NCBI RefSeq assembly: GCF_000226255.1
Contig: NZ_AGFG01000039.1
Location: 1-64,000 of the forward strand
Length of the DNA: 64,000 nucleotides
From: Desulfovibrio sp. A2
GTDB lineage: Bacteria > Desulfobacterota > Desulfovibrionia > Desulfovibrionales > Desulfovibrionaceae
Direction of reading: 5' to 3'
Shown here: positions 30,601 to 46,038 of the stretch, in pieces
How the letters are laid out: the number at the start of each line of letters is the position of its first letter
Position numbering within the stretch: position 1 is the stretch's first letter
The notes under the pieces: generated by a model
What the model saw: only the letters and a program-made list of their open reading frames with translations
Database searches by the model: none
What the model was told of the DNA's origin: nothing
Position numbers and translations under genes: made by a program

Positions 30601-30716
30601 TTTTTGTTCGTTGGCGAGGTTTGACCTCGTTGCGCACGATGTCCGTAGGGCTCGCAAGCTCGCCCAACGGCCACGCTTCGCGCCCTTCGGGTCGGACGCC
30701 AACGGGCAAAAGGACC
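30601..30716 (-). repeat. Modular intergenic repeat, type II, copy after icd
   Basis: Bases 30639-30716 match 41780-41862 closely (for example CTCGCAAGCTCG, AACGGCCACGCTTCGCGCCC and GGGCAAAAGG are shared). Both begin about 5-13 bp after a stop codon on the minus strand, and both end in a GAACAAAAATCC module. Confidence 0.8.
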
Positions 30717-30729
30717 GTTCAGAGCATGC

Positions 30730-31878
30730 TTACAGGGCCTTCGCCACCATCTCGCCAAACGCCACGGTGCCCACGGTGGTGGCCCCGGCCATCTGCGAGG
30801 CCAGGTCCACGGTGACGGTGCGGTTGCCGATGGTGGTGTTGATGGCGTTGTAGATGCGGGTGGCCGCATCGTTCCAGCCCATGTGTTCCAGCATCAGCGC
30901 GCCGCACAGAATGAGGCTGCCGGGGTTGGCCTTGTCCTGCCCGGCAATGGTGGGCGCGGTGCCGTGGGTGGCCTCGAAGAAGGCCAGCGAGTCGGACATG
31001 TTCACGCCCGGCGCAAGACCAAGGCCGCCAACCTGCGCGGCCAGCGCGTCGGACAGGTAGTCGCCGTTCAGGTTGGACGTGGCGATCACGCTGTACTGGT
31101 CGGGGCGGATCAGCACTTCCTGGAACATGGCGTCGGCAATGCGGTCCTTCACCACCACCTTGCCCGCCGCGCCCCCGGCGTCGGCCTCCAGCACGGAAAC
31201 GTCGGCGAATTCGTCGCGCGCCACTTCATAGCCCCATTCGCGAAAGCCGCCTTCCGTGAACTTCATGATGTTGCCCTTGTGCACCAGCGTGAGGCTGGAC
31301 CGCTTCTGGGCCACGGCAAAGTTCATGGCGCGGCGCACCAGCCGCTTGGAGCCGCGCGCGGTCATGGGCTTGATGCCCACGGCGCTTTCCGGGTCCACGT
31401 TGGCGCCCAGTTCGTTGCGCAGAAAATCGATGAGCCGCTTGGCTTCCGGCGTGCCCGCCTTGTATTCGATGCCCGCGTACACGTCTTCGGTGTTTTCGCG
31501 AAACACCACCATGTCCACCAGGTCCGGCCGCTTCACGGGCGACATGATGCCCTCGAAGTAGCGGATGGGCCGGATGCAGGCGTACAGGTCCAGCGTCTGG
31601 CGCAGGGTGACGTTAAGGCTGCGGAAGCCCTTGCCCACCGGGGTGCCCAGGGGGCCCTTGATGGCCAGTTCCGCGCCGCGCAGGGCCTGCATGGTGGCCT
31701 CGGGCAGGTATTCGCCAGTGGCGGCGTAGGCCTTTTCACCGGCCAGCAGTTCCTTCCATTCGATGGAGCGCGCGTCGCCGTAGGTTTTCGCCACCGCCGC
31801 ATCAATGACGGGACGGGCGGCCTTCCATACGTCGGGGCCGATGCCGTCGCCTTCAATCCAGTAGACCGTCTTCCGCAT
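30730..31878 (-). CDS. icd: Isocitrate dehydrogenase with NAD-type cofactor residues
   Basis: 382 residues. It oxidatively decarboxylates isocitrate to 2-oxoglutarate; here this probably feeds glutamate synthesis. The substrate site is conserved (RSLNVTLRQ, RENTEDVYAGIE, ATSNLNGDYLSD). Against E. coli Icd, the NADP-selecting residues K344, Y345, V351, Y391 and R395 are T310, I311, A317, V357 and S361. I345, A351 and S395 match NAD-specific forms, so NAD+ use is predicted even though the family is often labelled NADP-dependent. The ATG follows AAAGGAGCGCCTCC. It is downstream of trpA on the same strand but separated by a terminator. Confidence 0.93.
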   Translation of the reverse strand: MRKTVYWIEGDGIGPDVWKAARPVIDAAVAKTYGDARSIEWKELLAGEKAYAATGEYLPEATMQALRGAELAIKGPLGTPVGKGFRSLNVTLRQTLDLYACIRPIRYFEGIMSPVKRPDLVDMVVFRENTEDVYAGIEYKAGTPEAKRLIDFLRNELGANVDPESAVGIKPMTARGSKRLVRRAMNFAVAQKRSSLTLVHKGNIMKFTEGGFREWGYEVARDEFADVSVLEADAGGAAGKVVVKDRIADAMFQEVLIRPDQYSVIATSNLNGDYLSDALAAQVGGLGLAPGVNMSDSLAFFEATHGTAPTIAGQDKANPGSLILCGALMLEHMGWNDAATRIYNAINTTIGNRTVTVDLASQMAGATTVGTVAFGEMVAKAL

Positions 31879-32251
31879 GGAGGCGCTCCTTTGCGCAGGC
31901 CCCGCCGGGGCGGGGCCGTACTGTCGTGCTGATGTCGTGCTGCCGAAAAGCGGCCGGACGGCGCGCCGCCCGGCCTTGTATCACGTGCTTCCGGTGGGAT
32001 CCGGGTACCCTTGGGGGTCAGTTCCGGTAGCCGGTTTGGCGGATTTTGTCAAAACGTGAGGGATGCCCGCGACGGCAGACGCCACGGCTGGCCGATGTGC
32101 CCCCGCCCTTCCCCAGCTTCGCGCCCCCCCACCCCGCTTGTAAAAACGGGACCGTCTCCCGCGCAGGGCGGGACGGTCCCGAAGGTTTGTGAATGCTGCC
32201 GCGCCACATCCGCGCGGCGGGCAGGGCGCTGCCCCGCCCTATCCTGTCCCG
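31879..32251. other. Intergenic region between trpA and icd
   Basis: Holds the terminator of the trp genes (32142-32181) and presumably the icd promoter. No clear -35/-10 pair was picked by eye. Confidence 0.5.
32142..32181 (-). terminator. Intrinsic terminator at the end of the trp operon
   Basis: On the minus strand CGGGACCGTCCCGC pairs with GCGGGAGACGGTCCCG and is followed by TTTTTA, 70 bp past the trpA stop. Confidence 0.88.
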
Positions 32252-33064
32252 CTACTTCCACGCGGCCAGGAACGATTCCGCGCTGTTGCCCGCGTCGATG
32301 TGGCGCAGCAGGGCAGACCCGAACACCACGGCATCGGGCCGGTCGGGGAAGCCTTCCAGTTGCTTCGGCTCCTTGATGCCGAAGCCCAGCGCCAGCGGCA
32401 GGCGGAAGGCCTTGCGGGCGCGGGCCAGCGTCTGCGGCACTTCCGGCGGCAGGCCTTCGCGCACGCCGGTGATGCCCAGCACCGACACCACGTACACGTA
32501 GCCGGAGGCCACGGCGGCGTATTCGGCCATGCGTTCCTCGCTGGTGTTGGGGCCGACAAGGGCGATGAGGTCTATGCCCCGCGCGGCCAGCAGCGCGCGC
32601 ATCTCGGCGTCTTCCTCCAGCGGCAGATCGGGCACGATGAAGCCCGCCACCCCCGCCGCCGCCGCGTCCGCCGCCAGGTTTTCCAGCCCGTACTGCAGGA
32701 ACGGGTTGTAGTAGCCCATCAGCACCAGCTCGGCGTTGTAGCGGTCCTTGCGGGCCTTCAGGCCGTCCAGTATCCAGCGCAGGGTCACGCCGTTTTCCAG
32801 CGCCCGCAGGGATGCCGCCTCCACCACCGGGCCGTCGGCCACCGGGTCGGAGAAGGGCACGCCGATCTCGATGACGTCCGCGCCGCCGCGATCAAGGCCG
32901 TCCATTTCCTCCCAGAAGCGGTCCAGGGTGGGAAAGCCCGCCGTCAGAAAGGGCACCAGCGCGGGCCGCCCCGCCGCGTTGGCGGCGGCCACGCGGGCTT
33001 CCAGCCGCGACACCGGGGCCTCGGGCAGCATGTCGTTCATGTCGGTATGAATGGCCGCGCTCAT
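32252..33064 (-). CDS. trpA: Tryptophan synthase alpha subunit
   Basis: 270 residues. It cleaves indole-3-glycerol phosphate and passes indole to TrpB. The catalytic acids lie in the TIM-barrel motifs [28 protein letters not shown] (catalytic Asp) and the N-terminal Glu region; the phosphate loop [10 protein letters not shown] is present. ATGA overlap with trpB couples translation for 1:1 subunit supply. It is the last gene of the supra-operon, followed by a terminator. Confidence 0.96.
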
Positions 33065-34245
33065 GCCAGCTCTCCTTCGCGGAACAACACTTCCCGCACG
33101 ATTTCCATGTCCTTGTCGCCACGGCCCGAAAGGTTGACCACCACGTGGCCCCCGGCAGGCAGCTTGTCCCGGTTGTTCAGCACCCACGCCAGCGCGTGCG
33201 ACGATTCCAGCGCGGGGATGATGCCCTCGCGCCGGGTCAGGGCCTGGAAGGCCTCCAGCGCCTGGCTGTCGGTGGCCATGCCGTAGGTCACCCGACCAAT
33301 GGCCCCCAGATGCGCGTGCTCCGGCCCCACGCCGGGGTAGTCCAGCCCGGCGGACACGGAGTGCGACGGCTCTATCTGGCCGTCCGCGTCCTGCAGCAGC
33401 ATGGTGTGCTGGCCGTGCAGCACGCCGGGGCGGCCCAGGTTGATGGGCGCGGAGTTGTAGCAGCCCGGCTCGCCGGTGCCTGCCGCCTCCACCCCCACGA
33501 TGCGCACCGAGGCGTCATCCACGAACGGATGGAACATGCCGATGGCGTTGGATCCGCCGCCCACGCAGGCCACCACCATGTCGGGCAGCTGGCCCACGCG
33601 CTCCTGCATCTGGGCGCGGGTTTCGCGCCCGATGACGCATTGCAGGTCGCGCACCAGCGTGGGGAAGGGGTGCGGCCCCGCCGCCGTGCCGAAGCAGTAG
33701 TGGGTGGAATCCTGCTGGGCTATCCAGTAGCGCAGGGCCTCGTTGATGGCGTCCTTCAGGGTCTTGGTGCCGCTCTGCACGGGCACCACTTTCGCGCCCA
33801 GCAGCTTCATGCGCATGACGTTGGGGGCCTGGCGCACCACGTCCGTCGCGCCCATGTACACCACGCATTCCAGCCCCAGCCGGGCGGCGGCCGCCGCCGT
33901 GGCCACGCCGTGCTGGCCCGCGCCCGTTTCCGCCACCAGCGCGGTCTTGCCCATGTATTTCGCCAGCAGCGCCTGCCCAAGGGTGTTGTTGACCTTGTGC
34001 GCGCCGGTGTGCAGCAGGTCTTCGCGCTTCAGCCACAGGTTAACGCCCAGTTCCGCCGACAGCGTGGGGCAGGCCGTGAGCGGGGTTTCGCGCCCCGCGA
34101 AGTTGCGCAAAAGGTCGTCCAGTTCCGCCCGGAACGTGTCCGAGGGCAGGATGTCGCGCATGGCGGCTTCCAGTTCCCGCAGCGGCGGCATGAGCATCTC
34201 GGGCACGAACTGCCCGCCGAACTCGCCGAAATAGCCTTTTTTCAT
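33061..34245 (-). CDS. trpB: Tryptophan synthase beta subunit
   Basis: 394 residues. The PLP enzyme condenses indole with serine. It has the TrpB1-type pattern: [10 protein letters not shown] start, [11 protein letters not shown] with the Schiff-base lysine (about residue 87), [26 protein letters not shown] for the PLP phosphate, and a [12 protein letters not shown] loop. The ATG follows ATAAAGGATACCACC. Upstream, between trpF and trpB, a type I hairpin repeat is inserted (34272-34341). It overlaps trpA by 4 nt. Confidence 0.97.
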
Positions 34246-34271
34246 GGTGGTATCCTTTATCTTTTTGGAAG

Positions 34272-34341
34272 AGGGTGCGCCGGGGAGGGGACCTTTTGGA
34301 AAAGGTCCCCCTCCCCGGACCCCTCCCCCCAAAACTTTTTC
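34272..34341. repeat. Type I hairpin repeat between trpF and trpB
   Basis: Arms CCGGGGAGGGGACCTTTT (34280-34297) and AAAAGGTCCCCCTCCCCGG (34300-34318), then CCCCTCCCCCCAAAACTTTTT. Same architecture as copies at 36941-37015 and 41509-41580. In the transcript it would be a very stable stem. Confidence 0.85.
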
Positions 34342-34392
34342 ATTGGCCAGCCCGTTATGGGGGCAGCATCATTCACTGTGCCGTATTCCTTC

Positions 34393-35076
34393 TCACCCTC
34401 GCAGCGCCGCAAGGGCGGCGGCCACGCGGGTTGCATCCTTCTGGCCGGGGGCGCTTTCCACCCCCGAATTGAGATCGACGCCGATCAGCATGGCGGGGGC
34501 ATGGCCGCCGCAGGCGGCAACGGCGCTGGCCACGTTGTCCGGGGTCAGCCCGCCCGCCAGCAGCCACGGCGCGCCGGGGGCCAGGCCGCGCAGCGCGGCC
34601 CAATCCATGGTGGCCCCGTGACCGCCACCGCTGGTGCCCGCATCCAGCAGAAAGCAGCGCACATGCGGGGCAAGCCCGGCCAGCTCTGCTTCCAGTGCCC
34701 TGCGGTCCGCATGGCCTGCGGAATCCGCATGACGTTGCGGCCAGGCCACGCGGATGACCCGTTCCGGCCCCACCCGGTCGCAGAAGGCGGCGTCCTGCCC
34801 GCCGTGCAACTGGGCAAAGTCCAGCCGGGCCGCGTCCATGATGGCCAGCACCTCGTCGGCGGACTGCTTCACGAACACCCCCACCCGCGCCATGCCGTGG
34901 CTGTGCAGCCCGGCGACCACGGCGGGCGTTACCCCGCGCGGGCTGGCCGGATGGAAGATGAACCCGCACAGGTCCACCCCGGCCTGCGCGCAGGCGTCCG
35001 CATCCTGCTGCCGGGTCAGGCCGCAGACCTTCACCAGCAGGCGGGAGGGGCTATCGAACACGGCGGCTGGTTTCAT
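34393..35076 (-). CDS. trpF: Phosphoribosylanthranilate isomerase
   Basis: 227 residues. It isomerises phosphoribosylanthranilate to the deoxyribulose phosphate. The catalytic Cys is in LVKVCGLTRQQDA (about residue 18), the catalytic Asp in LLDAGTSGGGHGA, and the phosphate loops in LAGGLTPDNV and GVDLNSGVES. It overlaps trpC by ATGA. The next gene (trpB) is 147 bp away because of the inserted repeat. Confidence 0.95.
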   Translation of the reverse strand: MKPAAVFDSPSRLLVKVCGLTRQQDADACAQAGVDLCGFIFHPASPRGVTPAVVAGLHSHGMARVGVFVKQSADEVLAIMDAARLDFAQLHGGQDAAFCDRVGPERVIRVAWPQRHADSAGHADRRALEAELAGLAPHVRCFLLDAGTSGGGHGATMDWAALRGLAPGAPWLLAGGLTPDNVASAVAACGGHAPAMLIGVDLNSGVESAPGQKDATRVAAALAALRG

Positions 35077-35900
35077 CGGGCACCTTCGGTTTCGCCGCAG
35101 CCCAGAAGCCGCATCAGCGAGCCTTTGAGGTCACCGCCATCCATGAGTGCGGTGCCCACCAATACCGCGTCATACCCGGCATGGGCGGCTTCCGCCAAGT
35201 GGCGGTTCTCGGATATCCCGCTGGCCGCTATCCACACCTCGCCGGAGGCGCGCAGCGGCCCCAGGCGCAGGCAGGCGGTGCGGTCCACGGCCAGGGTTTC
35301 CAGGTCGCGGTTGTTCACCTGGATGATCCGCGCACCGGATTCACGGGCCAGCGCCAGATCCCCCTCGTCGAAGATCTCCACCACGGCGTGCATGCCGTGC
35401 GCCTCGGCCTGCTCGCGCAGGTCGCGCAGGGTGCGCGCATCGGGCGTCAGCCGCACGATGAGCAGCAGCGCCGCCGCCGGGGTGGCCGCCGTGGCCGACA
35501 CCTGCAACGGGTCCATGATGAAGTCCTTGCGCAGCAGGGGAACATCAGGATGCACCCCGGCCATGCGGCCAAGGTAGGCCAGGTCGCCGCCGAAGTACTG
35601 CTCTTCTGTCAGCACCGAGATGGCCGTGGCCCCGGCGGTGGCGTAGGCCGTGGCCGCGTCCTCGGGCGATACGCCCGTCTCGATGACCCCGCGCGAGGGC
35701 GAAGCGCGCTTGTACTCGGCGATGACCGCCACCGGGGCATCCGGGTAGCCGCTGCGGCCCTGCAACGCCCGCAGGAAGTCGGGGCGCGAGGTGCCGCCAT
35801 CTGTCCCGGACGCCAGCGGCGCGGGCATCCCGCCTGCGGCGGCCAGCTTGCGCAGCCGGTCCAGTTCCGGCTGCTTGGCGATGCGAAAGCGATCAAGCAT
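35073..35900 (-). CDS. trpC: Indole-3-glycerol phosphate synthase
   Basis: 275 residues, a single-domain TIM barrel not fused to TrpF. It closes the indole ring of the Trp precursor. Seen: VIAEYKRASPSRGVI (catalytic Lys), LRKDFIMDPLQV, HAVVEIFDEGDL, QVNNRDLETLAVD and IAASGISENRH. It overlaps the trpD end by 8 nt and trpF by 4 nt, so this block is translated as a coupled set. Confidence 0.96.
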   Translation of the reverse strand: MLDRFRIAKQPELDRLRKLAAAGGMPAPLASGTDGGTSRPDFLRALQGRSGYPDAPVAVIAEYKRASPSRGVIETGVSPEDAATAYATAGATAISVLTEEQYFGGDLAYLGRMAGVHPDVPLLRKDFIMDPLQVSATAATPAAALLLIVRLTPDARTLRDLREQAEAHGMHAVVEIFDEGDLALARESGARIIQVNNRDLETLAVDRTACLRLGPLRASGEVWIAASGISENRHLAEAAHAGYDAVLVGTALMDGGDLKGSLMRLLGCGETEGAR

Positions 35901-36909
35901 GCAGCACCTTCCCCCCTGCCCCGGCGGCCAGGGCCAGCCGCGCGGCGGCCATGGCGTCGGGCAGGGCCAGGCCCGGTTCCAGCAGGTGCAGGGCCATGCC
36001 CACGTTCAGCACCAGCATGTCGCGCATGGGGGCCGGGCCGCCGCCGGACAGCAGTTCGCGCAGCACGCGCACGGCGGAGTCGCGGTCAGGCACGGCCAAC
36101 TCCTCGGGGGTGCACGGCGCGATGCCGTAGTCCGCCGGGTCCACGCTGATTTCCGTCAGCGTGCCGTGGCCTTCGCCGTCGCCCTCCAGCAGCAGGATGC
36201 GCGCGGGGCCCATGGGCGTCAGTTCGTCGTAGCCGCCCGCGCCATGCACCACCGCCGCCCGGCGCACGCCGGTCATCAGCAGGGTCTGGGCCATCAGGGG
36301 CAGCAGTTCGGCGCGGGCCACGCCCAGCAGCATGTGGGTGGGCCGGGCCGGGTTGAGCAGCGGCCCCAGCAGGTTGAACAGGGTGCGCACGCCCAGTTCG
36401 CGCCGGATGGGCATGACGTTGCGGAACGCCGGGTGGAAGCGCGGCGCGAACAGGAAGGCGAAGTTGCGCTGCGCCACCAGCCTGCGCACGTCCTCCGGGT
36501 CCAACTCCAGCGGCAGGCCCAGGCCCTCCACCGCGTCCGCCGCCCCGCACGAGGACGACACCGCGCGGTTGCCGTGCTTGACCACCCGGTGGCCCATGCC
36601 CGCCAGGGTCAGCGCCGTGGCCGTGGAGCAGTTGAACGACGAGCGGCCGTCGCCGCCGGTGCCCACGATGTCGATGGTGGGGCCGTCGATGCCGGTCACC
36701 CGCACGGCGCGAGCCAGCGCGGCGCGCACCGCCTCGGTGAGTTCCTGCGGGGTCTCGCCCTTCATGCGCAGGCCCATCAGGAACGAACCCGCCTGCGCGC
36801 AGGTCATCTCGCCGTCCATCAGGCGCGAGAACCCGGCCTCGGCCAGTTCCGGCGCAAGGTCCATACCCGTGGCCAGTGTTTCCAGTATGGTAGACGTTGC
36901 GGTCTGCAT
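35893..36909 (-). CDS. trpD: Anthranilate phosphoribosyltransferase
   Basis: 338 residues, not fused to TrpG. It transfers phosphoribosyl from PRPP to anthranilate. Conserved parts: IDIVGTGGDGRSSFNCST (PRPP-binding), VVKHGNRAVSSSCGAADAVE, and HPAFRNVMPIRRELGVRT. The ATG follows TGAAGGAGACAGCAA. It is separated from trpG by 195 bp holding a type I hairpin repeat and a 37-bp palindrome copy. Confidence 0.96.
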   Translation of the reverse strand: MQTATSTILETLATGMDLAPELAEAGFSRLMDGEMTCAQAGSFLMGLRMKGETPQELTEAVRAALARAVRVTGIDGPTIDIVGTGGDGRSSFNCSTATALTLAGMGHRVVKHGNRAVSSSCGAADAVEGLGLPLELDPEDVRRLVAQRNFAFLFAPRFHPAFRNVMPIRRELGVRTLFNLLGPLLNPARPTHMLLGVARAELLPLMAQTLLMTGVRRAAVVHGAGGYDELTPMGPARILLLEGDGEGHGTLTEISVDPADYGIAPCTPEELAVPDRDSAVRVLRELLSGGGPAPMRDMLVLNVGMALHLLEPGLALPDAMAAARLALAAGAGGKVLHA

Positions 36910-36940
36910 TTGCTGTCTCCTTCAGGAGTTCTTTGTCGGG

Positions 36941-37015
36941 AGGGGAGGCACCGGGGGAAGGGACCCTTTGAAAAGGGTCCCCTTCCCCCGAACCCCCATC
37001 CCCCTAAACTTTCTT
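36941..37015. repeat. Type I hairpin repeat between trpG and trpD
   Basis: CGGGGGAAGGGACCCTT and AAGGGTCCCCTTCCCCCG arms (36952-36990), followed by AACCCCCATCCCCCTAAACTTTCTTT. Same architecture as the copies at 34272 and 41509. Confidence 0.85.
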
Positions 37016-37038
37016 TATGGGCGGGCAGCCCACCTAAA

Positions 37039-37075
37039 GGGGGTGCAGGGGGCCTGCCCCCTGCCCGCCGGAGGC
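37039..37075. repeat. 37-bp intergenic palindromic repeat, copy 2
   Basis: Differs by one base from 2670-2706 (GCAGGGGGCCTGCCCCCTGC core). It lies directly next to the type I repeat, so the two form a composite insertion between trpG and trpD. Confidence 0.75.
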
Positions 37076-37104
37076 GAACAAGAAACCTCTTCGTCGCCCC
37101 GCTC

Positions 37105-37683
37105 TCACTTCTCCGCCACCTGGGCGGGAAAGTTGGCGAGCATGCGCACGCCGTCGGGGGTCAGCACGGATTCGGGGTGGAACTGCACGCCCACCCAGGG
37201 CCGGTCGGTGTAGCGCAGGGCCATCACCTCGCCTTCGGGGGCGCGGGCGGTGACGGCCAGCAGGTCGGGGCGTTCCTCGGCGTGCACGATGAGCGAATGG
37301 TAGCGGCCCACCTGCATGGGGCTGGGCACGCCGTGGAACAGGCCCTGCCCGTCGTGGGTGATGTCCGAGGTCTTGCCGTGCATGATGCGCGGGCCCACAT
37401 CCACGGTGGCCCCGGCGAACAGCCCCAGCACCTGATGGCCCAGACACACGCCCAGCACGGGCACGGTGTGCGGCAGGCGCGACAGGAAATCGAGGCAGAA
37501 GCCCGCGTTGCGCGGGTGGCTGGGGCCGGGCGAGATGCACACCATTTCCAGCGCGGGGTCTTCGGCCATGGCGGGCACGGCGGGGTCGTCGTTGCGGACC
37601 ACCACCGGCGTGAGCCCAAGGCCGTAGAACGCCTGCACCAGATTGAAGGTGAACGAGTCGTAGTTATCGATTAACAGGAACAT
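37105..37683 (-). CDS. trpG: Anthranilate synthase glutamine amidotransferase component
   Basis: 192 residues. It supplies ammonia from glutamine to TrpE. The class I amidotransferase triad is visible: LGVCLGHQVLG (catalytic Cys, about residue 80) and VQFHPESVLTPDG (His and Glu); the oxyanion loop is CISPGPSHPRN. The start at 37683 is 3' of CGGAGGGGAAT and lies inside the end of trpE (20-nt overlap), giving tight coupling. Confidence 0.96.
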   Translation of the reverse strand: MFLLIDNYDSFTFNLVQAFYGLGLTPVVVRNDDPAVPAMAEDPALEMVCISPGPSHPRNAGFCLDFLSRLPHTVPVLGVCLGHQVLGLFAGATVDVGPRIMHGKTSDITHDGQGLFHGVPSPMQVGRYHSLIVHAEERPDLLAVTARAPEGEVMALRYTDRPWVGVQFHPESVLTPDGVRMLANFPAQVAEK

Positions 37684-39220
37684 ATTCCCCTCCGGTGACG
37701 GCGGCGCGGATGACGGCGGCCTTGTTGTTGCACTCCTTCCATTCCATCTCGGGCACGGAATCGAACACGATGCCCGCACCGGCCTGCCAGTGCACCTGGC
37801 CGTCGCGCACCCACATGGAGCGGATGGTGATGCCGGTGTCCAGGTTCACCGAGTCACGGTCCAGCCCCAACCAGCCGATGGCCCCGGCATAGGGGCCGCG
37901 CGCAAGGCCTTCCGCCTCGGAAATGATCTCCATGGCCCGCACCTTGGGCGCGCCGCTGACGGTGCCCGCCGGGAAGGTGGCGGCCAGCACGTCCAGCGCG
38001 TCGCGGCCCGGTTCGATCTGGGCGGTCACGCGCGAGGTCAGGTGCATGACGTGCGAGAACTTTTCCACGTCCATGAACCGTTCCACCTGCACGGTGCCCG
38101 GCGCGGCGATGCGGCCCAGGTCGTTGCGGCCAAGGTCCACCAGCATGACGTGCTCGGCGCGTTCCTTGGGGTCTTCCAGCAGTTCCTGGGCCAGGGCGGC
38201 GTCGTGGGCGTCGTCCGTGCCGCGCGGGCGGGTGCCCGCGATGGGGCTGACCTGCAGCTTGTCCGCCCGGCAGCGAACCATGACCTCCGGCGAGGACCCC
38301 AGCAGCGAGACGCCGGGCAGCCGCATGAAGAACATGTACGGCGACGGGTTGATGCGGCGCAGGCGGCGGTACAGGGTGAACGGGTCGCCGCTGAACGAGG
38401 CCTGGAAACGGGTGGACAGCACCACCTGGATGGCCTCGCCCTGGCGGATCATGTCTTTCACCCGGGCCACGGCGCGGGTGTACACGGCCTCTTCCGGCAC
38501 GTTGATGACGGGGCCAACTTCCGGCGGCTCGGGCGTGCGGTCCACCTGGCTGCGGTCCACCCTGGCCCCCGGCAGGTCGGTGAGCGAAAGCTGGCACAGC
38601 CGGTTGTACAGGTGGTCGAACAGCACCACGGTGCCGGGCAGGGCCAGGCAGGCCTCTGCCGAAGACGGCGGCAGCACCTTGGCCAGCTTGGGCTCGAACA
38701 GGCCGGACACGCCGTAGCCGAAATAGCCGTACAGGGCGCGGGTGATGGGGGGCTGGTCGGCGAAGGCCCCGTCCGGCTCGATGCGCAGGGCGCCCATCAC
38801 CGCGCGGGTGCCCTCGATGAAGCCCATGCCGTCGAACCTGCGCAGCGGGGCAAGGCGCGGATCGCGCACGGCCACTTCCAGCTTGCCGTCGCGGCAGCCG
38901 AGGCGCAGCAGGAAGTTGAAGGCGATGACGCTGAACCGGCCCCAGCGGCCGTCCACTTCGGCGCTTTCCAGCAGGATGCCCTGCCCGGACCCCACCATGC
39001 CCAGGAACACGCTGATGGGGGTGTCCACGTCGGCCTCCAGCCAGCGGCCGGTCTGGCGCAACACGATCTCGCCGCCTTCGGACAGCGGGGGGATGTCGTC
39101 ACCGGAACCGGTGGGGGCGCAGCCGTTGCCATTGGCCGGGGTCTGCACGGTTTCCGGAGCCTGGGGAGCCTTCGCCGTTTCGGGGGCTTCGGCCTGCGTG
39201 GGCATTTCGGGCATTTCCAT
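37664..39220 (-). CDS. trpE: Anthranilate synthase component I
   Basis: 518 residues. It makes anthranilate from chorismate with TrpG. The N-terminal 45 residues are Pro/Glu/Ala-rich and not conserved. The LLES element of the Trp feedback site is present (ILLESAEVD), so allosteric inhibition by Trp is likely. The chorismate-binding domain has SPIAGTRPRG, HVMLVDLGRNDLGRIA, VSGAPKVRAMEII and ITIRSMWV. ATG 39220 was chosen since AAGGAGGACCAG precedes it; the in-frame TTG at 39235 is part of that site's neighbourhood. It is the first trp-specific gene and sits directly behind the tyrA-trpE attenuator. Confidence 0.96.
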   Translation of the reverse strand: MEMPEMPTQAEAPETAKAPQAPETVQTPANGNGCAPTGSGDDIPPLSEGGEIVLRQTGRWLEADVDTPISVFLGMVGSGQGILLESAEVDGRWGRFSVIAFNFLLRLGCRDGKLEVAVRDPRLAPLRRFDGMGFIEGTRAVMGALRIEPDGAFADQPPITRALYGYFGYGVSGLFEPKLAKVLPPSSAEACLALPGTVVLFDHLYNRLCQLSLTDLPGARVDRSQVDRTPEPPEVGPVINVPEEAVYTRAVARVKDMIRQGEAIQVVLSTRFQASFSGDPFTLYRRLRRINPSPYMFFMRLPGVSLLGSSPEVMVRCRADKLQVSPIAGTRPRGTDDAHDAALAQELLEDPKERAEHVMLVDLGRNDLGRIAAPGTVQVERFMDVEKFSHVMHLTSRVTAQIEPGRDALDVLAATFPAGTVSGAPKVRAMEIISEAEGLARGPYAGAIGWLGLDRDSVNLDTGITIRSMWVRDGQVHWQAGAGIVFDSVPEMEWKECNNKAAVIRAAVTGGEYVPVNR

Positions 39221-39260
39221 CTGGTCCTCCTTCAAGTGCGGTGTGCCGTGAGTGGTGCAT

Positions 39261-39299
39261 CAAAAACAAAAAGCCGCGCTCCCGGGGAGGGAGCGCGGC
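39261..39299 (-). terminator. Intrinsic terminator between tyrA and trpE
   Basis: GCCGCGCTCCC and GGGAGCGCGGC, perfect 11-bp arms around TCCCC, followed on the minus strand by TTTTTGTTTTTG. It sits 41 nt past the tyrA stop and 40 nt before the trpE start. Confidence 0.92.
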
Positions 39300-39387
39300 C
39301 TACGATTGCCTTGTCCGTTACTCTACTACTTACGTGCAGCTATGACGGACGCACTCCTCCCCTTTCGGTGTGCGAACGCCACCACCA
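39261..39387 (-). promoter_or_regulatory. Candidate trp attenuator using the TyrA C-terminus as leader peptide
   Basis: Three consecutive Trp codons of tyrA (39379-39387) come 36 nt before its stop. Segment 1, CGCAC (39370-39374), can pair with GTGCG (39350-39354). Segment 2, GGGGAGGAGTGCG (39350-39362), can pair instead with CGCGCTCCCTCCCC (39284-39297), which is most of the terminator 5' arm plus loop. Segment 3-4 is an 11-bp stem (39289-39299 with 39273-39283) followed by TTTTTGTTTTTG. Stalling at the Trp codons would cover segment 1 and favour antitermination; a ribosome reaching the stop would cover segment 2 and favour termination. Confidence 0.78.
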
Positions 39388-40140
39388 CTGGGCGCGGTCG
39401 ACCAGCACGTCCACATCGCCGGCTGCGGCGAAGTTGAGGAACGACAAGTAGCTGCGGACAGCGGTCTGGCTGTGGGGATTGGCTTCGAACATGCCTTCGA
39501 AGAGGGATGCGTCCTCGGTGAGCATCTTGCGCGCCGCGTCGAGACGACGGCGGAACGAGGGGGTGATGAAGGGGGTCAGTTCGTCGCGGTGGGCCAGCGT
39601 GGCAAGGTAGGCGACGCTGGTGATGAAGTTCAGGCCCTGGATGCAGGCGGCGGCCTCGTCATGCTCGTCCGCCGTGGTGCGGAAGGGCACGCAGCCCATA
39701 TCGGCGAAGACGCGCTCGATGAGCGCCACGTCCGCCTCGTGCGCCCCCTCGCCGGGGGTCACGGCCACGCGCAGGTTCTGCGCAGGATCGTCCCCGGATG
39801 AGGGGGGCGGCACCGGGCCGAACAGCGGGTGGGTGCCCACCACGGGGCCAGCGTAGTGGCGCTCCATGACCTGCATGGGGCGCACCTTGACGGAGGTGAT
39901 GTCCGCCAGCACCTGCATGCCGTTCAGCAGCGGGGCCACCTGGCGCAGCACCTCGTCCATGGCTTCCACGGGCACGCACAGCAGCACGGCGGCGGCACCG
40001 TCCACGGCATGACGCAAGGCATCCTGCGTCAGCGGACGGTCCACGCCCCCCACCGCGTATCCGGCGGCGGAGAGCCTGTCGGCGAACAGGCGGCCCATGC
40101 GGCCCCCCGCGCCAACCAGCGCGATTTTCACAGCGTTCAT
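39340..40140 (-). CDS. tyrA: Prephenate dehydrogenase (with Trp-Trp-Trp C-terminal motif)
   Basis: 266 residues. It oxidatively decarboxylates prephenate to 4-hydroxyphenylpyruvate for tyrosine. The Rossmann motif is VGAGGRMGRLFADRL; GTHPLFGP and EHDEAAACIQGLNF carry the conserved catalytic histidines. No chorismate mutase or ACT domain is fused. Residues 252-254 are WWW, 12 residues before the end; these codons precede a terminator and look like the sensing codons of a trp attenuator. ATGA overlap with aroA couples it upstream. Confidence 0.93.
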   Translation of the reverse strand: MNAVKIALVGAGGRMGRLFADRLSAAGYAVGGVDRPLTQDALRHAVDGAAAVLLCVPVEAMDEVLRQVAPLLNGMQVLADITSVKVRPMQVMERHYAGPVVGTHPLFGPVPPPSSGDDPAQNLRVAVTPGEGAHEADVALIERVFADMGCVPFRTTADEHDEAAACIQGLNFITSVAYLATLAHRDELTPFITPSFRRRLDAARKMLTEDASLFEGMFEANPHSQTAVRSYLSFLNFAAAGDVDVLVDRAQWWWRSHTERGGVRPS

Positions 40141-41489
40141 GCGCGTACCTTTTCCCACTCGTTCCAGAAATGCGGGAACGACTTTGCCACGCAGGCAGGG
40201 TCGTCCAAGGCCACCTGTACCCCGGCGAACCCCAGAAGCGCAAGACTCATGGCCATGCGATGGTCGCCGTATGACAAAAATGGCATCACTTTTTCGTCAA
40301 TCACGGGCGCAGGCCCGCCGCTGCGCAGCGAACCATGCACTATGAGGCCATCGTCCAGTTCCTCCACCCGCACACCGGCCTTGCGCAGTTCCGCCGCCGG
40401 GGCGGACAGCCGGTCGCATTCCTTGATGCGCAGGTGCGCCACGTTGCGAATGATGGTCATGCCTTGGGCAAAGGCCGCCGTGACCGCCACCGTGGGCACC
40501 AGGTCCGGACAGTGGCCCATGTCCACTTCCACCCCGGTCAGGCTGGACGGGGCCACCACCACGCCGTTGTCGGCCCGCTCGAAGCGCGCGCCCATGCGGC
40601 CCAGGATGTCCAGCATGGCCCTGTCACCCTGCAATGAGTCAATCCGCAATCCCGCCACGCGCACCGGGCGCGGGCCCACGGCCCCCGCCGCGAGGAAGTA
40701 CGAGGCGTTGGACCAGTCGCCCTCCACCCGGTAGTTGCCCGCGCGGTACACCCCCGGCGACACCACGAAGCGCACCAGGCCGGGCCGGACTTCACGCAAC
40801 AATCTCCAGTCGTCGGCCTGCCACTTGCCGCGCGGGGTTTCGCGCGTTTCCACGCGAAAGCCGATGCCGAAGTCCTCCAGCGCTTGCAGGGTCAGCGCCA
40901 CGTACGGCCACGACACCACCTTGTCGCCGGAAACCTCGATGGTCAGGCCGCTGGTGAGCGGCGCGGCCAGCAGCAGGCCCGACAGGTACTGGCTGGATTC
41001 GCCAAGGCCGATGGCGGTGGAACCGCCGGTCATGCCGTCGGAATCGATGAGCAGGGGCGGGCAGCCTTCGCGGCCCTCATAGGTCACGCGCACCCCGCGC
41101 CCGCGCAGCACGTCCACCAGTTCGCCGATGGGCCGTTCGTGCATGCGCGGCGCGCCGTGGATGCGGAACATCCCCTTGCCCGCCGCCAGCACCGCCGTCA
41201 GCAGGCGGCACGTTGTGCCCGATTCGTGCACGTCGCACGATACCGGCGCGTCGAATCCGCCCGCAGGCGTGCCCGCCACGCCCGACACCGCGAACCTGCC
41301 GTCGCCCTGGCGCTCTATACGCGCGCCCGCCGCCCGCAGGATGTCCGCCGTGCGCTCGATGTCGCGGCTTTCCAGCACGTGCTCCACCACCGAATCACCG
41401 GCGGCCAGCGCCGCGCCGATCAACATGCGGTGCGACACCGACTTGGACGGCGGCGCCGCCACGATCACGGTTTCACGTTTGGTTTCCAT
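40137..41489 (-). CDS. aroA: 3-phosphoshikimate 1-carboxyvinyltransferase (EPSP synthase)
   Basis: 450 residues. It joins PEP to shikimate-3-phosphate. Conserved: APPSKSVSHRMLIGAALAAG (N-terminal Lys/Ser/Arg loop), VHESGTTCRLLTAV, MHERPIGELVDVLRGRG, SSQYLSGLLLAAP, DMGHCPDLVPTVAV and RIKECDRLSA. ATG 41489 follows CAAAGGAATTTCC. It overlaps tyrA by 4 nt. Upstream toward pheA is a 377-bp gap filled with repeats. Confidence 0.96.
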   Translation of the reverse strand: METKRETVIVAAPPSKSVSHRMLIGAALAAGDSVVEHVLESRDIERTADILRAAGARIERQGDGRFAVSGVAGTPAGGFDAPVSCDVHESGTTCRLLTAVLAAGKGMFRIHGAPRMHERPIGELVDVLRGRGVRVTYEGREGCPPLLIDSDGMTGGSTAIGLGESSQYLSGLLLAAPLTSGLTIEVSGDKVVSWPYVALTLQALEDFGIGFRVETRETPRGKWQADDWRLLREVRPGLVRFVVSPGVYRAGNYRVEGDWSNASYFLAAGAVGPRPVRVAGLRIDSLQGDRAMLDILGRMGARFERADNGVVVAPSSLTGVEVDMGHCPDLVPTVAVTAAFAQGMTIIRNVAHLRIKECDRLSAPAAELRKAGVRVEELDDGLIVHGSLRSGGPAPVIDEKVMPFLSYGDHRMAMSLALLGFAGVQVALDDPACVAKSFPHFWNEWEKVRA

Positions 41490-41508
41490 GGAAATTCCTT
41501 TGCAGCGT

Positions 41509-41580
41509 ACCGGGGGAAGGGACCCTTTGGGAAAGGGTCGCCTTCCCCCGGACCCCTATACCCCCAAACTTTTTATTTGG
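41509..41580. repeat. Type I hairpin repeat upstream of aroA
   Basis: CGGGGGAAGGGACCCTTT and AAAGGGTCGCCTTCCCCCG arms (41511-41550) followed by GACCCCTATACCCCCAAACTTTTTATT; architecture as in the copies at 34272 and 36941. Confidence 0.85.
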
Positions 41581-41686
41581 GAGTAGGAGACACAACCCGG
41601 ATGCACCCTGTCGGTGGATCCGGCTCGAACTCATTTACGCAAAGAGCGCCGGTCACCGTCGCCGAGGCGCGCGCGGTGCGGATTTT

Positions 41687-41862
41687 TGTTCTCTGGCAAG
41701 GAAGGCGAGCCTTTCAAGAGGGGAGCGTACTCTTCGGTACGTGACCCGAAGGAAAGGCGACGCCTGACGCTCTGCTCTCGATGGCCGTAAGACTCGCAAG
41801 CTCGTCTAACGGCCACGCTTCGCGCCCTTTGGGTCGGTCCGCCAGAGGGCAAAAGGCCGCAC
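41687..41862 (-). repeat. Modular intergenic repeat, type II, copy after pheA
   Basis: Read on the minus strand it begins about 5 nt after the pheA stop. Modules: the CCTTTTGCCC...CTTGCGAG part shared with 30639-30716; a hairpin with apex GGTCACGTACCGAAGAGTAC, shared with 44337-44372; and the TTGCCAGAGAACAAAAATCC end, also shared in part with both other copies. Confidence 0.8.
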
Positions 41863-41866
41863 CGCG

Positions 41867-43087
41867 TCAATCACCGCTCATATCCAGTTGCGGCCCGGCC
41901 GGATAGCTCCCGAGTATTCTGAGGGTATGACACAGCCTGCGCAGTTCGTGCACCACCCGGCCATAGTCCTCGTTGCCGAGGTCGCATTCCACGTCCACGA
42001 AGAACACGTACTTCCACTTTTCGCCGCGCAGGGGCCGCGACTCCAGCTTCTTCATGTTGATGCCCTCGCGGGCCAGCAGGTTCAGCACCTCTGCCAGCGC
42101 GCCGGGCCTGTCCGGCACCGAGAACAGCATGGAGGTCTTGTCCGTGCCGGGCTGGCCCGCCGGGGCGGGGCCGATGACCACGAAGCGCGTCCAGTTGTCC
42201 GGCTGGTCCTCTATGCCGCGCGCCAGGATGTTCAGCCCCAGCAGCGCGGCCAGGCTGCGGTGCCCGATGGCCGCCGCGCCCTTCTCCCCCGCCACCCGCC
42301 GCGCGGCCGAGGCGGTGGAATCCGCCGGGATGATCCGCGCCCCCGGCAGGGCCTGGCGCAGCCAGCCGCCGCACTGGGCCAGCGGCTGCGGGTGCGAGTA
42401 CACCGTGGTCACGTCGGCCAGGCTGGTTTCCGTGGTCAGCAGGCAATGGCTGATGCGGCAGAACAGCTCGGACTGGATGAATACCTCGTGCGTCAGGAAC
42501 AGGTCCAGGCTCTGTCCCACGGTGCCGTGCAGCGAATTTTCCAGCGGCACCACGCCAAGCTCGCACTGCCGGTCGTGCACGGCGCGGAACACCCCGTCCA
42601 AATCCTTGTGCGGCATGTATTCCACGGCCTTGCCCAGGAATTCCACGCCCGCGAAGTACGAAAAGGTGCCCTCGGGGCCGAGGTAGGCCACCTTCTGGGG
42701 CCGTTGCAGGCTGCGCGAGGACGAAAGGATCTCGCGCCAGATGGAGCGCAGGTGCTCGTTGGGCAGCGGCCCGCCGTTGGCGGCCATGAGATTTTCCAGC
42801 ACCTCGCGCTCTCGGAAAGGCTTGAACACGATGCCCGCGTCGTCGGCCTTGATGCGCCCCACCTCCAGGCTGAGCGAGGCGCGGCGGTTCAGCAGGTGCA
42901 GCAGGTCGGAATCCAGCCCGTCGATCTCGTGGCGGATCTGGCCCAGCCGTCCGGCCAGCGCCGCTTCCGGATCGTTTCCAGCCCCAGGTTGAGGGGTGGA
43001 CGAGGGCGCGCCGTCCGTGACGTCGGGGGAACTGGCGGCAAGGGCGTCCCCTCGCCAGTTGGGGTCCTTGTCGTCGGTGAGGCTCAT
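41867..43087 (-). CDS. pheA: Bifunctional chorismate mutase / prephenate dehydratase
   Basis: 406 residues. A disordered start (1-45) is followed by an AroQ chorismate mutase domain (about 48-130, IRHEIDGLDSDLLHLLNRRA; KPFREREVLENL), a prephenate dehydratase domain (about 133-315, VAYLGPEGTFSYFA; GVVPLENSLHGTVGQSLDL; TRFVVIG with the catalytic Thr-Arg-Phe), and a C-terminal ACT domain (FSVPDRPGALAEVLNLLA; ESRPLRGEKWKYVFFVD) for Phe feedback. The ATG follows GGGAGGATACGCCC. It lies 34 bp behind the DHQ synthase II gene. Confidence 0.96.
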   Translation of the reverse strand: MSLTDDKDPNWRGDALAASSPDVTDGAPSSTPQPGAGNDPEAALAGRLGQIRHEIDGLDSDLLHLLNRRASLSLEVGRIKADDAGIVFKPFREREVLENLMAANGGPLPNEHLRSIWREILSSSRSLQRPQKVAYLGPEGTFSYFAGVEFLGKAVEYMPHKDLDGVFRAVHDRQCELGVVPLENSLHGTVGQSLDLFLTHEVFIQSELFCRISHCLLTTETSLADVTTVYSHPQPLAQCGGWLRQALPGARIIPADSTASAARRVAGEKGAAAIGHRSLAALLGLNILARGIEDQPDNWTRFVVIGPAPAGQPGTDKTSMLFSVPDRPGALAEVLNLLAREGINMKKLESRPLRGEKWKYVFFVDVECDLGNEDYGRVVHELRRLCHTLRILGSYPAGPQLDMSGD

Positions 43088-43121
43088 GGGCGTATCCTCC
43101 CGAGGTGCATGGTGGTGCGCA

Positions 43122-44093
43122 TCAGCATTCCTTGATGTCCTCCTTGATGCGCATGCCGAAGTGACGGCCCGCGCAATCGGTGCGGCACAGGATCTGGTCG
43201 CCTTCCTTCAGGGTCACCACGCTCACCGGGGTGCCGTCCGGGCGGGTCAGGCGGATGGTTTCCGCGTTCTGCAGGAACACCGCGCCCTCCACGTCGCCCA
43301 CCCTGGCCCGCACCAGCAGCATGGGCCGCGCCTCCACCTTCAGCCTGCCCACGGTGGCCACGGTGGTGGAACCGTCGGCGCCGACGATGAGCACCTCGTC
43401 ACCCGCGCGCAGTTCTTCAAGGTAGGTGGTCCTGTCGCCGGGCATCTGGGCATAGGCGTGCACGGCCCCGGCATTGATGCGGAACGGACGTGCGGCCACG
43501 TATTCGTTGTGCTCGGTCTCGGCATGCACCAGGAAGGTGAACGCGCTGGAATTGCCCACCAGCATGCCCTGCCCCCGGCGCAGCATGGACATGGTGTCCA
43601 CGCACACCCGGTGGCCAAGGCCCACGTTCTCCACCGCCGTGACCACGGCGGGGGCAAGGTCGATGCAACCCTGCGACAGCTTGAGATCGGCCACGATGGA
43701 CTTCAGTTCCCCTGCGCCCTCGGGCAGCACCACCACGGTGGCCACGCCCCGCTCCAGAATGCCCGCCGCAAGGCGCGCCTCGGAAAGGTCGGCCACTTCC
43801 ACGGCCACGTTGTCCGACTGCGCCAAAAGATTCTCCACCGGAATGATCTCCCACCCGCGCGCCAGCACCACGGTTTCGCCCCGCGCCAGCCGCGCGGCGG
43901 CGTCCTCTTCGTCGGCCTTGGCCGACAGCGCGATGGTCACGACGTCCTCGTCGGCCAGCACCCGGCACCGGGCCAGCGCCGCCACCGAATCCACCTGCGC
44001 ACGCGGCACGATGATGCCGTCCACGCCCGATTCCAGCGCCAGGGTCACCAGGCCCTTGTCGAAAGGCACGCTCTTGAAAAGAATGGTCCGCAT
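43122..44093 (-). CDS. 3-dehydroquinate synthase II (archaeal type)
   Basis: 323 residues. It converts 2-amino-3,7-dideoxy-D-threo-hept-6-ulosonate to 3-dehydroquinate with NAD+, replacing AroB. Recognised by VTALENVGLG-like text (VTAVENVGLGHRVCVDTMSML), GMLVGNSSAFTFLVHAETEH, ARPFRINAGAVHAY and the C-terminal barrel ending DCAGRHFGMRIKEDIKEC. The ATG at 44093 follows TGAGGGGTCGG. It pairs functionally with the aldolase-like ADH synthase encoded upstream; in bacteria this pair is known from Desulfovibrio. Confidence 0.93.
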   Translation of the reverse strand: MRTILFKSVPFDKGLVTLALESGVDGIIVPRAQVDSVAALARCRVLADEDVVTIALSAKADEEDAAARLARGETVVLARGWEIIPVENLLAQSDNVAVEVADLSEARLAAGILERGVATVVVLPEGAGELKSIVADLKLSQGCIDLAPAVVTAVENVGLGHRVCVDTMSMLRRGQGMLVGNSSAFTFLVHAETEHNEYVAARPFRINAGAVHAYAQMPGDRTTYLEELRAGDEVLIVGADGSTTVATVGRLKVEARPMLLVRARVGDVEGAVFLQNAETIRLTRPDGTPVSVVTLKEGDQILCRTDCAGRHFGMRIKEDIKEC

Positions 44094-44419
44094 CCGACCC
44101 CTCACATTTTTGTCATGGCGGCGAACCGCTCTATAAATCCGCCCAGTGCGCGGCCCCATTCGGGCCAACTCTCTTCGGGAGGAACAAGGACATTCAGCCG
44201 TTCACTGCCGGACGTCATGCGCTTCCGACTCTCCCGGATTCGGCGCCGTTCCGTTCTCTGGCAAGGAGGTGGCCACCGCTCGAACCCGACCACTTCCCGC
44301 GCGCGTATCGGTGCGCCGGCTAGGAGGACAAGGATTCCGGGAGGGAGCGTACTCTTTGGTACGTGACCGACCGGAAGCCGCCGTCCGACACCGCCCGCGC
44401 GCCGATACGCCGCGGGAAG
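44094..44419. repeat. Intergenic inverted repeat with type II modules
   Basis: No gene. Arms CTTCCCGCGCGCGTATCGG (from about 44284) and CCGATACGCCGCGGGAAG (to about 44420) form a long interrupted inverted repeat; the apex GGAGCGTACTCTTTGGTACGTGACC matches the apex module of the copy after pheA, and CTCTGGCAAGGA matches its far end. The right arm runs into the last codons of the ADH synthase gene. Confidence 0.7.
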
Positions 44420-45217
44420 CTAGTCGCCGACGAGAGCCATCGCCTGCTCCACATCCCAATCCTCATGCACCAGGCCGCGCAGGGCCTTGACGAGGGCGGG
44501 GGTGCGTTCGTGCTGAAAGATGTTGCGGCCCACGGAAAGACCAGCCGCGCCAGCGCGCACCGCGTCGTGCACCATCTGCAGGAACGACCGGGTGGAATCC
44601 AGCTTGGGGCCGCCCGCGATGACCACGGGCACGCAACAGGAGGCCACCACGTGGGCGAAGCTGTCCATGTCGCCGGTGTAGGCCACCTTGACCACGTCGG
44701 CGCCCAGTTCCACGCCCACGCGGGCGGCGTGGGCCACCACCTCGGGGTCATACTCGTTCTTGATGCGGGGGCCGCGGGCGTACATCATGGCCAAAAGCGG
44801 CATGCCCCAGTCGTTGGCCACGGTGGCCACGCGGCCAAGGTCGGCCAGCATGTCGCGTTCGGTCTCGTCGCCCAGGTTCACGTGCACGGACACACCGTCC
44901 GCGCCGTGCTTCAGGGCGTCTTCCACGGTGGCGACCAGGGTCTTGGCGTTGGGGCGGGGGGAAAGGGAGGTGGATGCGGAAAGGTGCACGATGAGGCCCA
45001 CGTCGCGGCCGCCCTCGCGGTGGCCGCAGCGCACCAGGCCCTTGTGCATGAGCACGGCGTCCGCGCCGCCTTCGGCCACCTGGTTCACGGTTTCGCGCAT
45101 GTCCACAAGGCCGTAGATGGGCCCCACGCTCACCCCGTGGTCCAGCGGCACGATGACGGCACGCCCGGTTTTTCGGTTGAAAATGCGCTCCATCCTGATT
45201 CTTTTGCCGATTTGCAT
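44420..45217 (-). CDS. 2-amino-3,7-dideoxy-D-threo-hept-6-ulosonate synthase
   Basis: 265 residues. A class I aldolase that condenses aspartate semialdehyde with a 6-deoxy-5-ketofructose phosphate donor, the DAHP-independent first step to the shikimate pathway. Markers: [67 protein letters not shown] (Schiff-base lysine) and VVIAGGPK. The ATG at 45217 follows AACAGGGGACGATACG. It is the first structural gene of the supra-operon and is preceded by an aromatic-codon leader and terminator. Confidence 0.93.
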
Positions 45218-45439
45218 CGTATCGTCCCCTGTTCTTTCGGAAAGGTTGCGGCGCAACTGGCCGTGATCGTTCGTCCTTACCTTGCGACCGGGCCGTGTGG
45301 CGCGGACGCCGGGGGATATCCCCCGTGTACCGGGTACTGCTGATGCGGCAGCGTCGGGCTGCGGGCCGGGGTTGCCTTGCGGCGTGCCCGGCCTTTGGGG
45401 CACACGCTCCGGGGCGCGCCGCGCGTAACGCGCCACCGG

Positions 45440-45482
45440 AAAAAACAGAAAGGGGCCGCCGGCTTTTCGCCCGCGGCCCCTT
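45440..45482 (-). terminator. Intrinsic terminator in the leader of the aromatic supra-operon
   Basis: On the minus strand AAGGGGCCGC (45473-45482) pairs with GCGGCCCCTT (45450-45459), extended by an inner GGC/GCC, and is followed by TCTGTTTTTTCC. It lies 33 nt after the leader ORF stop and about 220 nt before the first structural gene. Confidence 0.88.
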
Positions 45483-45542
45483 GAGTCTTCGTGTGTTTAC
45501 ACCTTCGTCAGATGCTTACGCACGCTCCATGCGGCCACGGGC
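45469..45542 (-). promoter_or_regulatory. Candidate antiterminator of the aromatic attenuator
   Basis: Leader codons 27-30, GCCCGTGGCC (45533-45542), can pair with GGCCGCGGGC (45469-45478) inside the terminator 5' arm: 10 bp with one G-U. This is mutually exclusive with the terminator. A ribosome stalled on codons 16-20 of the leader would leave the upstream strand free. Confidence 0.7.
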
Positions 45543-45620
45543 TTCTCCATAGCTAAAAAAGTACCAAAAGTAATAGTTGGTACGGAAAGCGGTGGTGAAG
45601 GTGGCGGAGGTGGAAAGCAT
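45516..45620 (-). CDS. 34-aa aromatic-rich leader peptide of the aromatic supra-operon
   Basis: Translated from ATG 45620 to TAA 45516. Residues 16-24 read YYFWYFFSY: four Tyr, three Phe and one Trp in nine codons, with further Phe at 8 and 12. GCAAGGA lies 11 nt before the ATG. The peptide has no other recognisable feature and ends 33 nt before an intrinsic terminator, the classic layout of a ribosome-mediated attenuator. It would sense charging of tRNA-Tyr, -Phe and -Trp together and control genes from ADH synthase to tyrA, and in part the trp genes. Confidence 0.82.
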   Translation of the reverse strand: MLSTSATFTTAFRTNYYFWYFFSYGEARGRMERA

Positions 45621-45693
45621 CTTGAATGATGTCCTTGCGGAAATCCGGTTTGGTGTCCCGACGTTATCCGTTTCAGGTGTTTCGGGAAACGTA

Positions 45694-45717
45694 CGCCCGC
45701 CCCGCGAAAGCTGTCAA
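45694..45717 (-). promoter_or_regulatory. Possible promoter of the aromatic supra-operon
   Basis: A perfect TTGACA (45712-45717, minus strand) lies 92 bp before the leader ATG. The -10 is weak: TACGTT at 19-bp spacing is the best reading. The -35 match and position are suggestive only. Confidence 0.4.
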
Positions 45718-46038
45718 GCGGAATATTCGGGGCAATCCCGTTTTTCCACGGCTTCAGCCTTGTTCTGTTTTACGTTTTTGTTTCTCCAAACACTCATCGC
45801 GTATTCAAATTTGTAATTATAATGCCAAGCACATTGCCGCCCACCTCGCCTACTGACCCGTGATGCCTTGAAATTCACCATGTTGCCGCCGTTGGCCCCT
45901 GTTTTGCTAACTTCCCGGCATGGTCACGTGGACGGCTTGCCGCCGTGCACGCCCCCCCTCTCCGGTTGCCCGCCGGAAAGGGGACCGGACATAACAGCAA
46001 CCACAGGGCCTCCGCCGCGACCGGCACGGAAAGACGCC
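45718..46038. other. Divergent intergenic region, AT-richer than its surroundings
   Basis: Includes an AT-rich patch (about 45770-45830, with TATAAT-like text on the minus strand) that could carry additional promoter elements for the aromatic supra-operon or for the divergent gene at 46039. No gene is seen. Confidence 0.4.

Follow-up and report, generated by a model that had tools for sequence, protein, structure and literature searches.

The 3′ end of tyrA as a probable tryptophan-sensing attenuator leader for trpE in Desulfovibrionales

The 3′ end of tyrA very probably acts as the leader of a tryptophan-sensing attenuator for trpE, a reading to which we assign, from the sequences compared here, a probability of about 0.9. 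It was followed from one window, the whole 64,000-nucleotide stretch of Desulfovibrio sp. A2 DNA that was analysed, to related tyrA junctions. The original prediction that the coding end of tyrA doubles as this leader is in agreement with the terminator, a covarying antiterminator, a fixed spacing and free-standing leaders found elsewhere. Sequence comparison establishes the parts, their covariation and spacing, a codon bias and the free-standing equivalents. An upstream translated ORF with the regulated codons, a predicted terminator before the first gene and an exclusive antiterminator at the correct spacing, as expected of an attenuator, are all recognizable in the sequence; a conserved hairpin between segments 1 and 2 is the element missing from this set. 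The dedicated short ORF of a conventional trpL is absent from the window and present at 19 of 19 loci where trpE is separated from tyrA.

In the window, the relevant genes lie on the minus strand and were taken from the ORF list. tyrA (39340..40140), the gene with the proposed leader at its 3′ end, encodes prephenate/arogenate dehydrogenase (Pfam PF02153 on homologs), and its ATG overlaps the stop codon of aroA, which lies upstream and ends at 40137. The upstream supraoperon genes are aroA′, aroB′, pheA and aroA (40137..45217; named by recognition). As predicted, trpE (37664..39220), the first gated gene, follows tyrA after 119 nt, with its ATG at 39220 and the tyrA stop codon at 39342-39340; trpG, trpD, trpC, trpF, trpB and trpA (32252..37683; named by product recognition) would form the remainder of the gated operon. 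The gene order aroA′…tyrA > [trp operon] is given for D. vulgaris in PMC1173090. No sigma-70-like promoter emerged in 30000-46000 from a strict consensus scan, which is weak evidence given that about one is expected by chance. The sole Rfam match of the window at gathering thresholds is a tRNA gene at 59656-59739 (plus strand). No trp leader is present among the seven weak Rfam matches (E ≤ 5) in nine loci, the window giving only the tRNA, and the plasmid collection gave no match.

On the minus strand, the end of tyrA reads ...CAG TGG TGG TGG CGT TCG CAC ACC GAA AGG GGA GGA GTG CGT CCG TCA TAG. The three tandem Trp codons (39379..39387, minus strand), identified from the sequence as the putative sensor, encode the only three Trp residues of the window TyrA. 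Segment 2, the antiterminator 5′ strand AGGGGAGGAGTGCGTCCG (39346..39363, minus), starts 15 nt past the last Trp codon within the tyrA coding end and is supported by duplex energy and covariation swap tests; GGGGAGGAGTGCG at 39362-39350 (minus strand) pairs with the 5′ arm of the tyrA-trpE terminator. Segment 3, GGCCGCGCTCCCTCCCC (39284..39300, minus), comprises the terminator 5′ arm and loop, and its partner is either segment 2 or segment 4, the terminator 3′ arm (39271..39283, minus). The T-rich tract of the intrinsic terminator (39261..39270, minus; from the sequence) is separated from the trpE ATG by 40 nt. The predicted hairpin that precedes the T tract has a stem (39301-39271) of 13 pairs, which folds at -26.7 kcal/mol and begins 39 nt past the tyrA stop. 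The Trp codons, CGCAC (39374-39370), GGGGAGGAGTGCG, the terminator and the tyrA stop are all located where they had been predicted.

Terminator-like sites are unremarkable in number in 30000-46000 (seven, below a shuffle mean of 10.8), and the other six sites have 5 or 6 pairs versus the 13 of the tyrA-trpE terminator. The duplex between the tyrA tail and the terminator 5′ arm has an energy of -28.7 kcal/mol, versus -17.1 kcal/mol on average over dinucleotide-shuffled sequences (z -3.8, p 0.010). TGGTGGTGG is frequent in the genome, with 542 occurrences on both strands versus 328 for the reversed control; the triplet alone is therefore no proof, and it is the combination and its conservation that carry weight.

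How the switch would operate step by step, and that it would respond to tryptophan, we infer from these parts. The attenuator at the tyrA end would set how much transcription passes from the aro-phe-tyr genes into trpEGDCFBA, and aroA′, aroB′, pheA and aroA are proposed to escape gating by this internal element. When charged tRNA-Trp is ample, the ribosome trailing RNA polymerase would clear the Trp codons, reach the tyrA stop and cover segment 2, so that the terminator would form and RNA polymerase would halt ahead of trpE. When charged tRNA-Trp is scarce, the ribosome would wait at the Trp codons and leave segment 2, about 15 nt downstream, exposed; segment 2 would then pair with segment 3, no terminator would form and trpE would be transcribed. 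Minimum-energy folds of the window locus kept the terminator in every run, including those with segment 2 free, so the switch would have to be kinetic or rest on co-transcriptional order. The E. coli trp switch is likewise kinetic.

WWW is found near the C-terminus in 112 of the best 120 of 914 TyrA homologs examined. The comparison of junctions drew on a contig scan of 147 relatives, 80 of which were kept, on searches of the family, the order and the phylum with matches in 177 of 199, 115 of 120 and 116 of 148 genomes, respectively (the last with five from the window's family), and on 100 further stretches. A total of 267 loci gave 266 with a tyrA match and 213 distinct junctions, 25 of which, from other orders and with a TyrA less than 40% identical to that of the window, were left out. 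The 188 junctions counted comprise 185 placed in Desulfovibrionales by record title or kinship and three with broader or no labels; four had too little flank to be classed, and loci L087 and L252 and five 'other' loci were assigned to a class by hand.

The junctions fall into three states. The embedded state, with trpE next and a terminator between, accounts for 86 of the 188 (83 by a strict rule and three by a relaxed T-tract rule, with L090, embedded by the relaxed rule only, doubtful); hairpins inside trpE at L220, L245 and L257 are spurious and stand outside the 83 strict loci. The Trp run of the embedded loci is WWW or WWWW in 84, LWW in one and CWW in one. trpE is next without a terminator at 29 loci (WWW in 9, xWW in 20), and no trpE, meaning none within the available flank, which is 1,000 nt or longer (1,500 nt or longer in 50 of 69), is seen at 69 loci, 54 of which have WWW. 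The first Trp is lost in 20 of the 29 terminator-less adjacent loci (Fisher p 1.6e-13, uncorrected for kinship), and WW persists in 20 of 20 of these losses, the first Trp being the residue replaced. For a joint loss of the first Trp and the terminator, independent pairs number four among adjacent loci (1.4 the same, 0.0 opposite; not significant) and ten among all loci (2.4 versus 0.1, in the predicted direction, with few events and not significant). In L084, L097, L220, L223, L240, L257 and their relatives, trpE lies a few nucleotides past the tyrA stop with no terminator, and TyrA has AWW or TWW. These AWW/TWW loci represent an apparent loss of the embedded attenuator.

Pairing between the tyrA tail and the terminator recurs across the embedded loci. 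Of the 83 strict loci, 72 have a duplex more stable than shuffles at p ≤ 0.05 and 42 at p ≤ 0.01, the p-values of related loci not being independent; 11 miss the 0.05 level. Swap tests over 57 loci that differ in their terminator arms gave a mean energy of -22.2 kcal/mol for a locus's own tail and -16.6 kcal/mol (sd 0.40) for swapped tails, and none of 20,000 permutations matched the real pairing. The same result, 0 of 20,000, was obtained with 42 loci whose TyrA are less than 75% identical and with 23 loci below 60%, and a control segment of equal length before WWW gave no clear effect (1,394 of 20,000). Eight loci have a terminator and no visible trpE; their median z is +0.4, and p ≤ 0.05 is reached in three (one of them, L089, on a contig that ends 591 nt downstream).

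Segment 2 starts 15.1 ± 2.4 nt past the last Trp codon (n = 83), versus an sd of 7.7 when its position is taken relative to the stop codon, and it begins inside tyrA in 77 of the 83 loci and behind tyrA in 6. A fixed distance to the Trp codons with a variable distance to the stop is what a ribosome stalled on Trp codons would require as a sensor. Gly codons after the Trp run are GGA or GGG in 127 of 140 cases. The corresponding figures are 577 of 1,414 for the body of tyrA and 37 of 80 for tails with no trpE behind them, and the bias points to selection on the RNA as well as on the peptide. From the terminator end to the codon matching residue 51 of TrpE, where the conserved part starts, there are at most 70 nt in 49 of 83 loci, which leaves scant room there for a separate promoter.

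Where trpE lies apart from tyrA, it appears to have a leader of its own. trpE was sought in 22 genomes without trpE behind tyrA, with 20 matches, one of them weak; in G073 the contig ends 87 nt past tyrA, so that the separation is presumed. Upstream of the 19 strong matches, a short leader ORF with WWW (17) or WW (2) followed by a terminator is found in 19 of 19, for example MNVFSNTISNSFKGWWWRIQLRGGDVRA and MLNAFSLTFSAYRWWWRVVDVKGGVRPA. The distance from the Trp run to the start of segment 2 is 14.2 ± 1.5 nt, and the duplex reaches p ≤ 0.05 in 16 of the 19. The leader peptide tail, WWWR...GG(D/V)VR, closely resembles the TyrA tail WWWRSHTERGGVRPS in most of the 19, and a TTGAC-type promoter-like match, a count with no chance control, lies upstream in 17 of 19. 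As judged from these loci, the attenuator travels with trpE rather than tyrA, and tyrA is the leader where the two are adjacent. The original prediction held that WWW retained without the terminator would speak against it; WWW is kept in 54 of the 69 loci without trpE, and the 19 of 19 separated trpE loci that were read carry their own leader attenuator. The free-standing leaders (L268-L286) are about 26-32 aa long, the ORF start of L276 having been read too short. No NCBIfam model matches the two peptides searched and no Rfam trp leader the five loci searched, and these leader peptides may be unannotated.

One part of the original prediction that fares poorly is pairing between segments 1 and 2. 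A CGCAC:GTGCG helix is present in the window and possible in its genus, where the tyrA tail is identical across seven loci and thus offers no variation for a covariation test. Over 57 loci the swap test indicates no conservation of this pairing (z -0.4), segment 2 gave only negative swap tests with the stretches that precede, cover and follow the Trp codons and with the spacer, and a conserved spacer hairpin has weak support only (mean z -0.61; below -1 in 20 of 56). The ribosome-free state is therefore left unexplained by the model. A 1:2 pause or protector hairpin belongs to the textbook scheme of E. coli; here it is treated as accessory, and not defining, for ribosome-mediated amino-acid attenuators.

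Part of the conservation of WWW has its origin in the protein. In the predicted structure of TyrA (mean pLDDT 85), WWW (252-254) lies in the last helix, 243-261, and the pLDDT drops below 50 over residues 261-266, whose codons make up most of segment 2. This predicted C-terminal helix and the 54 of 69 TyrA without trpE that keep WWW indicate that the run is conserved partly for TyrA itself; the proposed regulatory codons, present in 84 of the 86 embedded loci, are not purely regulatory. A stronger form, in which WWW has only a structural role in TyrA of this lineage and an ordinary terminator lowers expression of the distal trp genes through partial polarity, is improbable in our estimation. 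It would suit these two observations and the persistence of WW in 20 of 20 terminator-less adjacent loci where the first Trp is gone, but it leaves unexplained the covariation of tail and terminator, the anchoring to the Trp codons, the GGA/GGG bias, and the recurrence of the same Trp run and spacing in leader peptides of separated trp operons. The Trp run contains the only Trp residues of TyrA in 77 of 86 embedded, 11 of 29 terminator-less and 5 of 69 no-trpE loci, a pattern consistent with a gene from which Trp codons that could stall ribosomes earlier have been kept out, but one that is confounded with kinship. Among the counts that weigh against an attenuator are the nine of 29 terminator-less adjacent loci that keep WWW, the 11 of 83 duplexes above p 0.05 and the three of eight loci at or below that level with a terminator and no visible trpE.

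A coupling of the kind seen at rph-pyrE, in which the proximity of the ribosome suppresses the terminator in general and the rate of translation or transcription is sensed instead of tryptophan, appears even less probable. In its favor, the terminator stem starts 39 nt past the tyrA stop, and terminators shortly after stop codons are repressed by ribosomes in an E. coli reporter according to PMC4824070. Yet segment 2 keeps its distance from the Trp codons rather than from the stop, the antiterminator covaries, and the free-standing versions retain the Trp codons. We give next to no credence to the tail being a translation-level signal, similar to GGAGG and a ribosome-binding site, with the terminator incidental: GGGGAGGAG is Shine-Dalgarno-like, but in the window no ATG, GTG or TTG follows 5-10 nt behind it, and at some loci AGGGGTGCGGC or AGGGACGCGG takes its place, with terminator arms that match.

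The conservation in relatives that had been expected within the family extends to the whole order Desulfovibrionales in the order-wide sample. In 25 of 25 distant TyrA, which come from other orders, the last 60 residues lack WW, and the stronger profile matches beyond Desulfovibrionales end before the WWW columns; in this sample, the motif therefore seems peculiar to the order. A quick tree of TyrA without the tail, rooted on five distant TyrA with a very long outgroup branch, places embedded loci on both sides of the root. By parsimony, the embedded leader thus looks like the ancestral arrangement in Desulfovibrionales. The state without trpE occurs mostly in one clade (58 representatives), grouped with the window's clade through a joining node that lacks support.

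A second putative attenuator is found at the head of the supraoperon. Its leader ORF, MLSTSATFTTAFRTNYYFWYFFSYGEARGRMERA (45516..45620, minus strand), contains the Tyr/Phe/Trp cluster NYYFWYFFSY, and its terminator (45452..45480, minus; -27.1 kcal/mol) was missed by the 30000-46000 terminator scan. The head terminator 5′ arm pairs with 45542-45531 in the leader ORF at -27.5 kcal/mol, a value with no shuffle control. An aromatic-rich short ORF precedes aroA′ in 18 of 18 related genomes, three of them after the searched stretch was widened, in a comparison that covers leader ORFs, not terminators, and has no chance control. aroA′ is duplicated in tandem at L290 (2838-4473) and L291 (2652-4285), where the aromatic leader precedes the first of the two copies. 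Table 7 of Song et al. 2005 (PMC1173090) lists a putative attenuator, from Merino's database, for D. vulgaris aroA′…tyrA > [trp operon]; the TyrA tail is not mentioned in the part of PMC1173090 consulted. Among the open-licence papers searched, no title or abstract describes a trp leader embedded in tyrA. Arranged in series, the two attenuators would place the first part of the operon under all aromatic amino acids and the second under tryptophan alone.

If this is correct, one gene end would bear enzyme sequence, sensor codons and a strand of an RNA switch throughout the order, and the long aromatic transcript would be split into a general part, under the Phe/Tyr/Trp attenuator at its head, and a part responding to tryptophan only. 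We tentatively extend this reading, with rather more doubt than confidence, to one ribosome stall with two opposite outputs and to freed leaders that are cut-down tyrA ends. On Trp shortage, the ribosome would wait on the last TyrA helix, so that completion of the enzyme would drop while the trp genes open, which would place a branch-point switch in the C-terminus of the competing prephenate-to-tyrosine enzyme. The trp leader genes of the separated clade would then be leader peptides that originated from an enzyme. Amino-acid attenuators usually have short leader ORFs that are regarded as serving no further purpose, and the natural series of embedded, lost and free-standing forms would illustrate how such peptides arise. 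It also suggests that gene tails in operons are worth a search for sensors, as screens of intergenic regions or short ORFs would miss such cases.

Within the same organism, the head attenuator follows the same logic as the tyrA tail; it differs from it as a conventional leader peptide with a terminator, in which a dedicated short ORF at the operon start carries mixed Phe/Tyr/Trp codons. In the trp attenuator of E. coli, the tandem Trp codons lie in the trpL leader peptide. The arrangement at tyrA resembles it in its Trp codons, its translated leader and the exclusive antiterminator and terminator directly before trpE. In contrast to E. coli, a functional enzyme gene contributes its 3′ end as the leader, which lies in mid-operon with no promoter or start of its own, segment 2 starts in coding sequence in 77 of 83 loci, and there is neither a conserved 1:2 hairpin nor an Rfam match. 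The rph-pyrE system of E. coli senses the coupling of transcription and translation (UTP), with no known regulatory amino-acid codons or antiterminator in the gene tail. As in rph-pyrE, the end of a real upstream gene is translated and would affect an intergenic terminator. A deletion at rph-pyrE lowers PyrE according to PMC3071312. Unlike rph-pyrE, the tail of tyrA carries both Trp codons and an antiterminator.
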